In this document: positions 46,611-50,516 of the stretch, one piece after another | How positions within the stretch are numbered: the stretch's first letter is position 1 | How the letters are laid out: each line of letters opens with the position of its first letter | Assembly (NCBI RefSeq): GCF_007992215.1 | Contig: NZ_BJZV01000002.1 | Span: 310,001-374,000, forward strand | Direction of reading: 5' to 3' | Length of the DNA: 64,000 nucleotides | Origin: Methylobacterium gnaphalii | GTDB taxonomy: Bacteria > Pseudomonadota > Alphaproteobacteria > Rhizobiales > Beijerinckiaceae | The notes under the pieces: generated by a model | Told to the model about the DNA's origin: nothing | The model's input: the letters and a program-made list of their open reading frames with translations, nothing else | Database searches by the model: none | Made by a program: the position numbers and the translations under genes

Positions 46611-46757
46611 GTGCCCTCCCGCTGGCGGGAGGCTGGTCCCGCACTGAAGTGCGAGAAGTCAGGGTTAGAGTTGCCCTCCCGCGAACGGGAGGGTTACGGG
46701 CACCTCGCCGGGGGCGTGGCGCATGAAGGTTTGCCCTCCCGGCGGGAGGAGAATTTC
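46611..46757. repeat. Three CCCTCCCG hairpins with exact 60-base period
   Basis: TTGCCCTCCCG-type units begin at 46611, 46671 and 46731. Each is followed at once by its own complement (CGGGAGG), giving stems of 7-8 bp with loops of one to four bases. The sequences between hairpins are unrelated. A fourth related hairpin, GCCTCCC-12 nt-GGGAGGC, lies at 46831-46856 just before the next ATG. They fill the divergent gap between the genes at 46540 and 46864. Confidence 0.75.
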
Positions 46758-46799: not shown

Positions 46800-46863
46800 G
46801 CCTCCTTGTGGATAGCGACCCCTCGCGGGAGCCTCCCTCTGAGCGGAACGGGAGGCAATTCGC

Positions 46864-47202
46864 ATGGACGGGCGGACCACGAGCATGGAGGGGCATGTAC
46901 GCGCGCTCGGGGCCGCCATCTCGCGGCGCGAGTGGAGCGAGGTCGAGGCTGCGCATGCCGCGATCCGGGACCGCGCCCGCACCGCGGCGGTTTCCGACGC
47001 CGAGCTCTCGGCCATGGAGCGGATGGGCTGGCCCGAGATCAACGCCTTCCACCAGGAGCTCGCCCGCGGGCAGGACGTCCGGGAGTACGGGGGCGGCTAC
47101 TGGTGCTAGGCGATCCGCCGCCTGTTCGGGCTGCCCTCCACGCTGGACACCGTCGAGACCTACCAGGACGTCGCCCGCGCCATGGTCTGGAGGGCCGCCT
47201 AA
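46864..47202 (+). CDS. Small hypothetical gene interrupted by in-frame TAG
   Basis: An 81-residue frame ends in TAG at 47107-47109, just after EYGGGYWC. The same frame continues for 30 protein-like residues (IRRLFGLPSTLDTVETYQ and more) to a TAA whose last base starts the next ATG (TAATG). That coupling suggests the true end is at 47202 and that TAG is read through, or that a once longer gene carries a nonsense mutation. GGGAGG precedes the ATG within a hairpin. No function is recognised. Confidence 0.55.
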
Positions 47203-47489
47203 TGCTGACCGACACCGAGCTCCATGGCCTCGCCCGCACCGTGGTCGACCTGCCGCCGGAGCAGGAGCGCGCCGTAGCCGACGCGGTCGCCGGCATCCGA
47301 GCCGAGCGCGCCCAGCGGAGGGAAGAGCGCCTCGCGGAGCTGCGGGCGATGTCCGACGAAGACGTCATGATGCTGATGTTCGCCCGGCATCACGACAACT
47401 GGCCGAACCCGGATGCCCTGACGCTCCTGCGCGAGGCCGGCTTCGTCCGGGGTGCCGTCCTGGAGAAGGCCTGCCGCGAGGGCTACTAG
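47202..47489 (+). CDS. Small acidic helical protein, ends at TAG with coding-like continuation
   Basis: A 95-residue soluble protein with a charged helix at 40-55 and MSDEDVMMLMFARHHDN in the middle. It ends ACREGY-TAG. The frame continues RYGHEFLGDG, which reads like the missing C-terminus, before degenerating across the next start. The start overlaps the stop of the previous gene. Function unknown. Confidence 0.5.
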   Translation: MLTDTELHGLARTVVDLPPEQERAVADAVAGIRAERAQRREERLAELRAMSDEDVMMLMFARHHDNWPNPDALTLLREAGFVRGAVLEKACREGY

Positions 47490-47527
47490 CGCTATGGCCA
47501 CGAGTTCCTTGGCGACGGGCGCCCCCC

Positions 47528-47602
47528 ATGTCGGACGAGGACGACCCCGATTAGGTGGCGGCGCGCGCCTATGACCTCGCCGACCTGATGAAGGGGGCCT
47601 AA
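47528..47602 (+). CDS. Micro-ORF with internal TAG
   Basis: The frame reads MSDEDDPD, TAG, VAARAYDLADLMKGA, TAA. Both halves are typical of small acidic proteins in this cluster, and the TAA is 3 bases from the next ATG. Without readthrough only eight residues would be made. Confidence 0.4.
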
Positions 47603-47605
47603 GCT

Positions 47606-47920
47606 ATGCGACCGCTGGACCCTCAAACTGACCAACCCATCGAGGTGACCATTCACCGGTACGGTGCAGGTGGCTATGAGCCGATGCGGCCGCTGCCCGG
47701 TTACCCCGACGATGTCGAGGGCTACCCTGACGACGAGCTCGGGGTCGCCGAGGGGGAGCCCGCACGTCCCCGCTTCGAGGGCAACCGCCGGGCACGCCGG
47801 AGGGCGGCCGCGCTGAAACGGAAGGGCGTCCGGGTCGTGGTGGGACCGCCGGTCTTCTACCCAGTGAGCCCGGACACGCTGCGCGTCGCCCGTGGGCAGG
47901 CGGAGGTGAGGAAGGCATGA
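47606..47920 (+). CDS. Hypothetical protein
   Basis: A 104-residue protein with an acidic first half and a basic helix (NRRARRRAAALKRKG) followed by VRVVVGPPVFYPVS. It ends in TGA overlapping the next ATG by 4 bases and has no internal TAG. GGGGG upstream serves as ribosome-binding site. Family unknown. Confidence 0.55.
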   Translation: MRPLDPQTDQPIEVTIHRYGAGGYEPMRPLPGYPDDVEGYPDDELGVAEGEPARPRFEGNRRARRRAAALKRKGVRVVVGPPVFYPVSPDTLRVARGQAEVRKA

Positions 47921-48369
47921 CCGAGCACGACGGCTATACCGACGCCGACCTCGCCAGCCATGGATGGTCTCCCGGCCTCTACTCCCTCCGAGGCCGCGAC
48001 TGCCGGGAGCGCGCCATCGGCGACAAGCGGGCGATCCGCTGCCGGCCCTGCGCGGTCTCCGTACTCCGGCTGGCGGAGGCCTACCCGCCGTCGGCAGAGG
48101 CCGCGGGCGCGCCGGTTCGCCGCTACGCCGTCCGGGACGCTGCCTCGGGGCTCATGTTCCGCAGCCACTCCATGCACCCGCAGCGCCGGTCGTGGGACGG
48201 CCTCGCGACGGCGCAGGTCTACCTCCAGCGGTCCGCGGCCGAGGCGACCGCCCGCCAAGTGCGCCAGCCCTGGGAGCAGTTCCGGCCGCATCACCCGACG
48301 CTCTACTCGGAGCGCCTGGAGCCTTAGGTCGTCGAGGTCGTCGAGGTCGAGTTGAGGATCGCGCCATGA
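47917..48369 (+). CDS. Hypothetical protein, ends at TAG or reads through to TGA
   Basis: A 136-residue frame has a CRPC motif (about residues 42-45) and a conserved-looking centre (RSHSMHPQRRSWDGL). It reaches TAG at 48325. In-frame codons then continue as VVEVVEVELRIAP to a TGA that overlaps the next ATG by 4 bases. The preceding gene pair shows the same ATGA coupling, which argues that the longer product was the original one. The extension contains a short GTCGTCGAG repeat. Confidence 0.55.
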
Positions 48370-48668
48370 GCGAGATCCAGTTCTGGTAGGCCACGGTCCA
48401 CGGCCACGACCGCCCCAAGGTCGTCGAGGTGATCATCGAGGACGGCAAGCCAGCGTACGTTTGCGAAGCGGGTGCGCCGAGCATCGCCGCAGACGATTTC
48501 GACCGGTGCGAGGTGCGCCTGATCGAGCGGGTGCTCCCGGCCGGGCGCGCCACGGCGGCGGTCGAGAAGCTGCGGGAGGCGGCTAACACTCGGTGCGGGG
48601 ACGACATGTGGAGCCTCATCTGCGAGACGATTGCGCTCATCAAGTAGAGCGGCGGGAACAAGGCATGA
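48366..48668 (+). CDS. Hypothetical gene with TAG at codon 8
   Basis: The frame begins MSEIQFW, meets TAG at 48387-48389, then continues for 85 residues of clearly coding sequence (TVHGHDRPKVVEVIIEDG and onward). It meets another TAG at 48645-48647 and finally SGGNKA and a TGA overlapping the next ATG. A GTG at 48429 could start a shorter protein of 72 residues, but it lacks a ribosome-binding site. This is the clearest amber-interrupted gene in the cluster. Confidence 0.5.
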
Positions 48669-48931
48669 CGACCGACGCAACCGCGCTGGCCAAGCTCGAC
48701 GAGTGGACTGGCATCTGCGGCGACGCACCGGAGTTCCTCGTCGAGGAGCTCGCCGCCCTTGGGTTCGTGGTCGCCCGGAGGGAGGACGTCGAGCACCACC
48801 GGCAGGAGCTCCGGGAACGGCGCCGCCGCGGCGAAGGCCACCTGGCAACGGCGTGGTGGCGTCCCTGTCCATCCCCTGTTCGCCGCCTGAATCTAACAGG
48901 GCCCCGACATCGCTGCCGGGGCCCCATCTGA
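48665..48931 (+). CDS. Hypothetical acidic protein
   Basis: The first 60 residues look natural (EWTGICGDAPEFLVEELAAL, then EDVEHHRQELRERRRR). The remaining 28 are read through a terminator hairpin and are probably not the original C-terminus, so a frameshift near 48840 is likely. The start overlaps the previous TGA. Function unknown. Confidence 0.45.
   Translation: MTTDATALAKLDEWTGICGDAPEFLVEELAALGFVVARREDVEHHRQELRERRRRGEGHLATAWWRPCPSPVRRLNLTGPRHRCRGPI
48899..48924. terminator. Bidirectional terminator between convergent small genes
   Basis: GGGCCCCG and CGGGGCCC form a perfect 8-bp stem with a 10-base loop, between the rightward gene at 48665 and the leftward gene ending at 48939. Confidence 0.65.
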
Positions 48932-48938
48932 CGCCTGA

Positions 48939-49154
48939 CTAGATGGCTGAGTTCTCGCACTCGGCGAGGAACTCGGCCACCTCCTCCAGGCTGTCCAGCC
49001 AGTCGGAGATCGCCGCAGCGCGGTCGCTCTCCTGCCAGCGCTCGGACATCTCGTCGAATGCCGCCCGCTGCACCTCCACGAAGGTTCGCAGTCCGCCTTC
49101 GGCTTGATCGAGCACTTTCGACAGCCCCGAGGGGATACTGGTCTTAACCGACAT
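48939..49154 (-). CDS. Hypothetical protein
   Basis: A 71-residue acidic, fully helical protein (SVKTSIPSGLSKVLDQAEGG, then a Trp-containing amphipathic helix). GGAGG precedes the ATG. It has no membrane segment or known motif. The stop is TAG and lies directly before a terminator, so here TAG looks like a genuine stop. Confidence 0.55.
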   Translation of the reverse strand: MSVKTSIPSGLSKVLDQAEGGLRTFVEVQRAAFDEMSERWQESDRAAAISDWLDSLEEVAEFLAECENSAI

Positions 49155-49410
49155 GCTGGGTTCCTCCACGGCCCGGAACCGATGCCGGGCACTTAGTGAG
49201 GACGGGTCCTCGCCGGCGTCGTCGGTGTATGAGCAGCTATGCCAAGCGGAGGGATGCCACGGTGCCGGTTGCAGGCCGGTTAAGCCGACCCGCGCAAACC
49301 GCTGGGGATGCCTCACCCGGCGGCAACCGTGGCCCTAAATGGCCCGCCCCGATTCGGATCCGGGTAACCCGCGACGCCTAGGGTTCGCGCACCAACAGGG
49401 GGGGCGCGGC

Positions 49411-49872
49411 ATGAGCACTGAGATGACCGTGAAGACGGCGTGCGCCGTCTCAAGGGTGAGGGAGGCGCAATTGCGGCTCGCAAGGGCTGAGCGGGTCGCG
49501 AAGGCCGCCGTCGATGCGTGTAACGAGTGGCACGAAGGCGAGTTTACGTCGGCGCTTGTCTTCGTTCCCATGCCTGGGATGCAAGCCGCAGTCGATCTCG
49601 TACAAGTCGACCGCGTAGCTCTCAATGCGGTCTACGACCAGGTCCGGGTCACGTCTGACTTGCCGGAGGGCATCATGATGCATGTGCTCAACCGGCGTTT
49701 CCAAGTGATGTCCGTCAAGGAGTGGTGCGAGCAGGCGCGCGCGTTGGGGGGGCCAAAGATTGGCCATCACTGGCTGCGTTCCTACGTTTCCGACCGCCTC
49801 TACCGCAGCAATGGAAAGGACATCGACGAGCGTGTCCGGAGGGCGGCAATGCTTATGGACGGGCAGGTCTGA
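49411..49872 (+). CDS. Hypothetical protein
   Basis: A 153-residue soluble protein starting MSTEMTVKTACAVSRVREAQ, with an N-terminal amphipathic helix and a mixed C-terminal domain (WLRSYVSDRLYR). GGGGGGGC precedes the ATG; an upstream ATG at 49339 lacks such a site. Codon use is less GC-biased than in neighbours. Family not recognised. Confidence 0.55.
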   Translation: MSTEMTVKTACAVSRVREAQLRLARAERVAKAAVDACNEWHEGEFTSALVFVPMPGMQAAVDLVQVDRVALNAVYDQVRVTSDLPEGIMMHVLNRRFQVMSVKEWCEQARALGGPKIGHHWLRSYVSDRLYRSNGKDIDERVRRAAMLMDGQV

Positions 49873-49882
49873 AGCCAGCGCA

Positions 49883-50092
49883 TTATCCGCCGAATTTTCG
49901 GCGGGCCTCCCGACGGCGCGGACCGAGCGCCTTCGCTAGGTCCGCCGGCCGGGACGCCCGGACGAACCCGGGGCCGTCCCGGCGCGCGGCCGCCGCATCG
50001 GCCAGGTCCTGCGCCAGCGCTCGCCAAGCGGCGTCCCGCTCCTCGCCCGCGGCGGCATACGCCAGCATCTCGTCCATCACGCGATCCTCCAT
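49883..50092 (-). CDS. Small hypothetical protein
   Basis: A 69-residue helical protein rich in Ala, Arg and Glu (MDEMLAYAAAGEERDAAWRA), ending in TAA and convergent with the previous gene. A start five codons later is equally plausible. No function is recognised. Confidence 0.45.
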   Translation of the reverse strand: MEDRVMDEMLAYAAAGEERDAAWRALAQDLADAAAARRDGPGFVRASRPADLAKALGPRRREARRKFGG

Positions 50093-50141
50093 TGACTAGA
50101 ACATATGGAGAACAAGATAGCTCGTTTAAGCGTGGCCGCTG

Positions 50142-50516
50142 ATGGGCAAGGACGGGATGGGCGAACCTTCGAGCTTGGGGTCGTTCCCCTACCGGCGAGT
50201 GGTGGTCACATGCGCCTGGTGCCCCCGGCGTCGGGGTGACTACGACACCTAGCGCCTGATCGCCCGCCTAGGCGCCGGGACGTCCCTCGACGACGCGCTG
50301 CGCGTCCTCGTCACCCGCTGCCGGTGGCCGAAGCCCTGGGGCGTCCGGGGCCCGAACCACTACCGACCTTGGTGCCGGGCGCGGTACGAGGACCTCGCGA
50401 AGGGGTGGCCGCCGGACCGGGTGTCCGGCGGGTCATTAAAGCAGCATGACACTTACGCGACTTCTTCCGCAAACGGCATCTGTCCCGGGGCAGCAGCAAC
50501 GTCCAACATCATTTGA
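50142..50516 (+). CDS. Cys-containing hypothetical gene interrupted by TAG
   Basis: From ATG 50142 the frame reads to VTCAWCPRRRGDYDT, then TAG at 50250-50252, then RLIARLGAGTSLDDALRVL and a second Cys near RCRWP. Small alphaproteobacterial proteins of this layout (CxxCxRxGxY, then a Leu-rich helix, then a distal Cys) are familiar as one continuous domain, so the TAG sits inside a domain. The tail from about 50430 overlaps a gene on the other strand and is doubtful. Confidence 0.5.

Follow-up and report, generated by a model that had tools for sequence, protein, structure and literature searches.

In a cluster of small genes of Methylobacterium gnaphalii, protein-like frames are repeatedly interrupted by TAG, and the question is whether this codon is read as an amino acid at this locus or whether the genes are decaying. 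The window in which the cluster lies, i.e., the whole stretch of 64,000 nucleotides that was analysed (G000:C2:310001-374000), belongs to a draft genome of 4.78 Mb (120 contigs, 100% complete). A first-pass annotation, made from the sequence alone, had located in-frame TAGs at 47107, 47487, 47552, 48325, 48387, 48645 and 50250; all seven positions are confirmed, and the small genes that carry them show no internal TGA or TAA, as it had also stated. Its observation that the continued frames end at the start of the following gene is borne out at four junctions (47202, 47602, 48369 and 48668), where the stop reached by reading through lies at 47200-47202 (TAA, overlapping the ATG at 47202), 47600-47602 (TAA, next ATG at 47606), 48367-48369 (TGA, next ATG at 48366) and 48666-48668 (TGA, next ATG at 48665). 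On the evidence below, the TAGs are very probably ordinary nonsense mutations in a variable small-gene cluster that is losing its function, i.e., a case of recent pseudogenisation. Such gene decay is ordinary and involves no new genetic code, and the claim that the code has changed in this high-GC genus of Alphaproteobacteria is thereby closed.

Homologues of the Interrupted Genes

Homologues of the cluster genes, all of which lie on the forward strand, were searched for in 111 genomes of the genus. Counting the genome under study itself, matches were found in four genomes for gene A, 23 for gene B, 10 for gene D, eight for gene E and 72 for gene H, and at least one continuous homologue spans each of the seven TAG sites. 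By comparison with these homologues, whose frames run on through every TAG, the genes of the cluster are shown to descend from continuous frames. The TAGs are private to this genome, no homologue sharing them.

Gene A (46864-47202, from its ATG to a TAA if read through) carries the TAG at 47107, where its homologues in genomes G127 and G002 both have CGG (Arg), a codon that is two changes away from TAG. Gene B (47202-47602) combines a TAG at 47487, a frameshift and a second TAG at 47552, the latter in the shifted frame. Its homologues in G127 (L072) and G018 (L078) keep a single frame through DPDYV or DYDYV to the end, while gene B leaves this frame close to a CCCCCC run that lies between 47487 and about 47528; the two TAGs are not in the same frame, which is the one correction to be made to the first-pass annotation. 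At 47487, the homologous codon is CAC (His) in G127 and GAG (Glu) in G018, with Asn or Ala in more distant homologues, and at 47552 it is TAC (Tyr) in G127, Tyr being found in G018 as well. Gene C (47606-47920), an open reading frame, has damaged genes on both sides and retrieved no homologue by tblastn.

Gene D (47917-48369), which is 68–73% identical to its relatives in G120, G047 and G147, has its TAG at 48325, 13 codons ahead of the coupled TGA, and the corresponding codon in G120 is GAG (Glu), within the stretch PEVVEVELRVVA. Relatives of gene D that bear a name come from Methylobacterium sp. Leaf104 and Leaf125. Gene E (48366-48668) is interrupted twice, at 48387 (codon 8), where all three distinct homologues have TGG (Trp), and at 48645, where one homologue has GAG (Glu), a weak assignment that adjoins an alignment gap; in-frame GTG and ATG codons are found further downstream in the gene. 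Gene F (48665-48931) is an out-of-frame fusion, in which the N-terminus comes from one gene and the C-terminus from its neighbour: the N-terminal part matches sequences in G057 (MTTDAAALAK gene), G034 and G136, and the C-terminal part, whose ancestral frame GNGAAAAKATWQRRGGVPVHPLFAA ends with the TGA at 48888, matches a different gene, in G127. Finally, gene H (50142-50441) has its TAG at 50250 (codon 37), a position occupied among 15 close homologues by 12 GAG, one GAA, one GAC and one GGG (Glu in 13 of 15), and by Ala in 12 distant homologues.

Gene H belongs to a family with a wide distribution in the genus, whose members are at times damaged. Several of its relatives in other species have been broken independently, by a TGA in place of a conserved Trp (L145), by a TGA at codon 7 (L141) or by a frameshift (contig C28 of G114), the relatives listed being L141, L145, L061 and L089. 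Such families thus decay in other genomes too, and not by TAG alone.

Amber Recoding and the Decoding Apparatus

Recoding of amber codons to Gln was one of two possibilities raised by the first-pass annotation. In a fuller form of this explanation, the cluster would be carried by a phage or another mobile element in which a suppressor tRNA gives TAG the meaning of Gln (code 15) or of another residue. Such a reading would account for the interruptions being TAG in seven cases out of seven and for the frame and gene coupling carrying on past several of them. The phages that use code 15 (e.g., crAss-like phages) provide the model: their reading of TAG as Gln has been validated (PMC9523058), a Sup-CTA tRNA is present in about half of the predicted ones (PMC11210395), and they share with our cluster the presence of TAG within otherwise continuous frames. 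However, Gln is found at the homologous position of none of the seven TAG sites, the residues being, in order, Arg, His or Glu, Tyr, Glu, Trp, Glu and Glu. The related suggestion that all TAGs could stem from CAG is formally possible but finds no support among the homologues; instead, most sites are a single base away from TAG by differing changes (G to T in GAG, G to A in TGG, C to G in TAC). Moreover, with a conserved Trp at 48387 and a conserved Glu at 50250, no single residue inserted at TAG could suit both sites.

The decoding apparatus likewise speaks against recoding. Genome-wide, 44 tRNA matches were obtained with Infernal, of which 42 were read by ARAGORN; the suppressor envisaged by the first-pass annotation was looked for in this whole set, and none of the 42 has a CUA anticodon, nor did a run of ARAGORN over 800 kb from contigs C1 and C2 add any. 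The only tRNA of the window is a tRNA-Met(CAT). Release factor 1 (prfA) is free of internal stops and reaches 485 bits, the cutoff being 423; its loss, considered as a candidate, is rejected on that account. TAG is a common stop codon in this genome, ending 21% of 427 long genes (67% for TGA and 12% for TAA), and it is the real stop of the neighbouring gene at 48939, as had been noted from the outset. Our cluster also differs from the code-15 phages in lying on a chromosomal contig with an intact RF1, and in bearing a frameshift (gene B) and a fusion (gene F), which a reassigned codon leaves unexplained.

In database searches, the small genes of the cluster had no real match in Pfam, and the sole match in PHROGs was a weak one (gene D to phrog_10481, of unknown function, E-value 0.0016). 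No relative was retrieved from IMG/VR viral contigs with genes D and E, nor from phage records with the DNA of the cluster, while the plasmid search returned a single match of 65 bp. Taking all these lines of evidence together, recoding by a mobile element is a highly implausible explanation.

The two remaining tRNA matches, both weak, look like partial, tRNA-like remnants. One (G000:C22:7596-7660, L044) resembles a degenerate tRNA-Met with a CAU anticodon region; the other (G000:C27:31664-31766, L043 and L050) is a partial tRNA-Gly-like sequence located just upstream of an apparent tyrosine-integrase gene and about 30 kb from the intact tRNA-Gly(CCC) that this contig also carries, and it probably marks the distal end of an island that has integrated there.

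Expected Share of TAG among Nonsense Mutations

To what extent a TAG-only series is unusual was evaluated by computing the share of TAG among all single-base changes from sense to stop codons, over a range of transition biases. The expected share amounts to 0.59–0.61 with the codon usage of the genome and to 0.59–0.64 with that of the cluster itself. Under this neutral model, the probability that seven out of seven are TAG is 0.026–0.042, for a region that was picked afterwards for this very feature, and the TAG-only pattern is a mild excess. The predominance of TAG is due to the GC-rich codon usage, in which many codons (GAG, CAG, TAC, TGG, AAG) are one step from TAG and few are near TAA, with some luck in addition. 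Hence, of the "biased decay" put forward in the first-pass annotation as its other option, the decay stands, whereas the bias mostly does not, as high-GC codon usage predicts most of it. When 800 kb were scanned ab initio for coding signal that continues across stops, a strict threshold yielded six TAG and seven TGA, similar numbers, but the scan is too noisy for counting pseudogenes. More generally, about 60% of random nonsense mutations in GC-rich genomes are expected to be TAG, even though TAG makes up only about 20% of real stops; because of this high expected share, a TAG-only run of interruptions is weak evidence for recoding.

Gene Decay versus Residual Function

Under the preferred explanation, decay, translation would stop at these TAGs, so that genes A, B, E and H would give truncated products and gene D would lose only 13 residues, the cluster as a whole presumably being under little or no selection. 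The cluster resembles known bacterial pseudogenes, which arise by nonsense mutations and frameshifts, in that its stops and frameshifts are absent from homologues, its genes are fast-evolving accessory genes and the decoding apparatus is ordinary. Moreover, TAG is not the only kind of lesion, given the frameshift in gene B and the out-of-frame fusion in gene F. The cluster departs from such pseudogenes in that its seven nonsense changes are all TAG, for an expected share of about 0.6. This uniformity (P of about 0.03–0.04) counts against decay, as do the conservation of gene H beyond its TAG and the pN/pS that gene D keeps.

The pN/pS ratios across the TAGs are weakly informative for most genes, which are too short or too diverged. 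For gene B, the ratio to the G127 homologue is 1.16, in a family where it is high throughout (0.54–1.22), while gene D shows 0.43–0.48 relative to its nearest relatives. In gene H, the part that follows the TAG has a pN/pS of 0.66, the second highest of 14 sequences, and yet none of the 20 strongly conserved positions beyond the TAG has changed, which suggests either that the lesion is young or that the tail is still read. This mixed picture fits recent decay and, judged by selection alone, is also compatible with residual read-through.

Some of the genes might indeed be partly functional, owing to low-level stop read-through or to re-initiation at downstream starts, an idea put forward for many in-frame stops of bacteria that come without other signs of degradation (PMC7918605). 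Like those conserved stops, the ones of the cluster are single in-frame stops followed by recognisable sequence, and the intact conserved residues of gene H, the barely shortened gene D and the downstream GTG and ATG of gene E would all agree with such a scenario. In contrast to them, the stops of our cluster are private to one genome and are accompanied by a frameshift and a fusion, i.e., by the very lesions that the cited study treats as signs of degradation; the pN/pS of the tail of gene H, second highest of 14 sequences, also counts against this scenario. Partial function is therefore very unlikely. A more specific variant, in which UAG is read at a low level by varied near-cognate residues and several small genes are still functional, appears very unlikely as well.

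Alternatively, some TAGs and frameshifts could be sequencing or assembly errors, since the genome is a draft and the frame of gene B is lost at a homopolymeric run. Yet it would be strange for seven isolated substitution errors to fall within 3.1 kb, and none of the 69 ABC-transporter domain matches elsewhere in the genome has an internal stop, which makes errors an extremely improbable cause. Decay of the cluster remains the preferred explanation for its TAGs.

Sequences Upstream of the Cluster

Two kinds of sequence element precede the cluster. Three GCCCTCCCG...CGGGAGG hairpins are found at 46613, 46673 and 46733, with a spacing of exactly 60 bases, and no further copy of the motif was found when 800 kb of the genome were searched. 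The first small gene is immediately preceded by a leader with a 7-bp GC-rich hairpin (46805-46863, forward strand), of which 65–66 bp are conserved at 83–85% identity in G127 and G002, and only there among the 111 genomes of the genus, in each case upstream of the matching first gene. The leader is conserved even though the gene behind it begins differently; it may serve as a common control element for a cluster that exchanges its genes.
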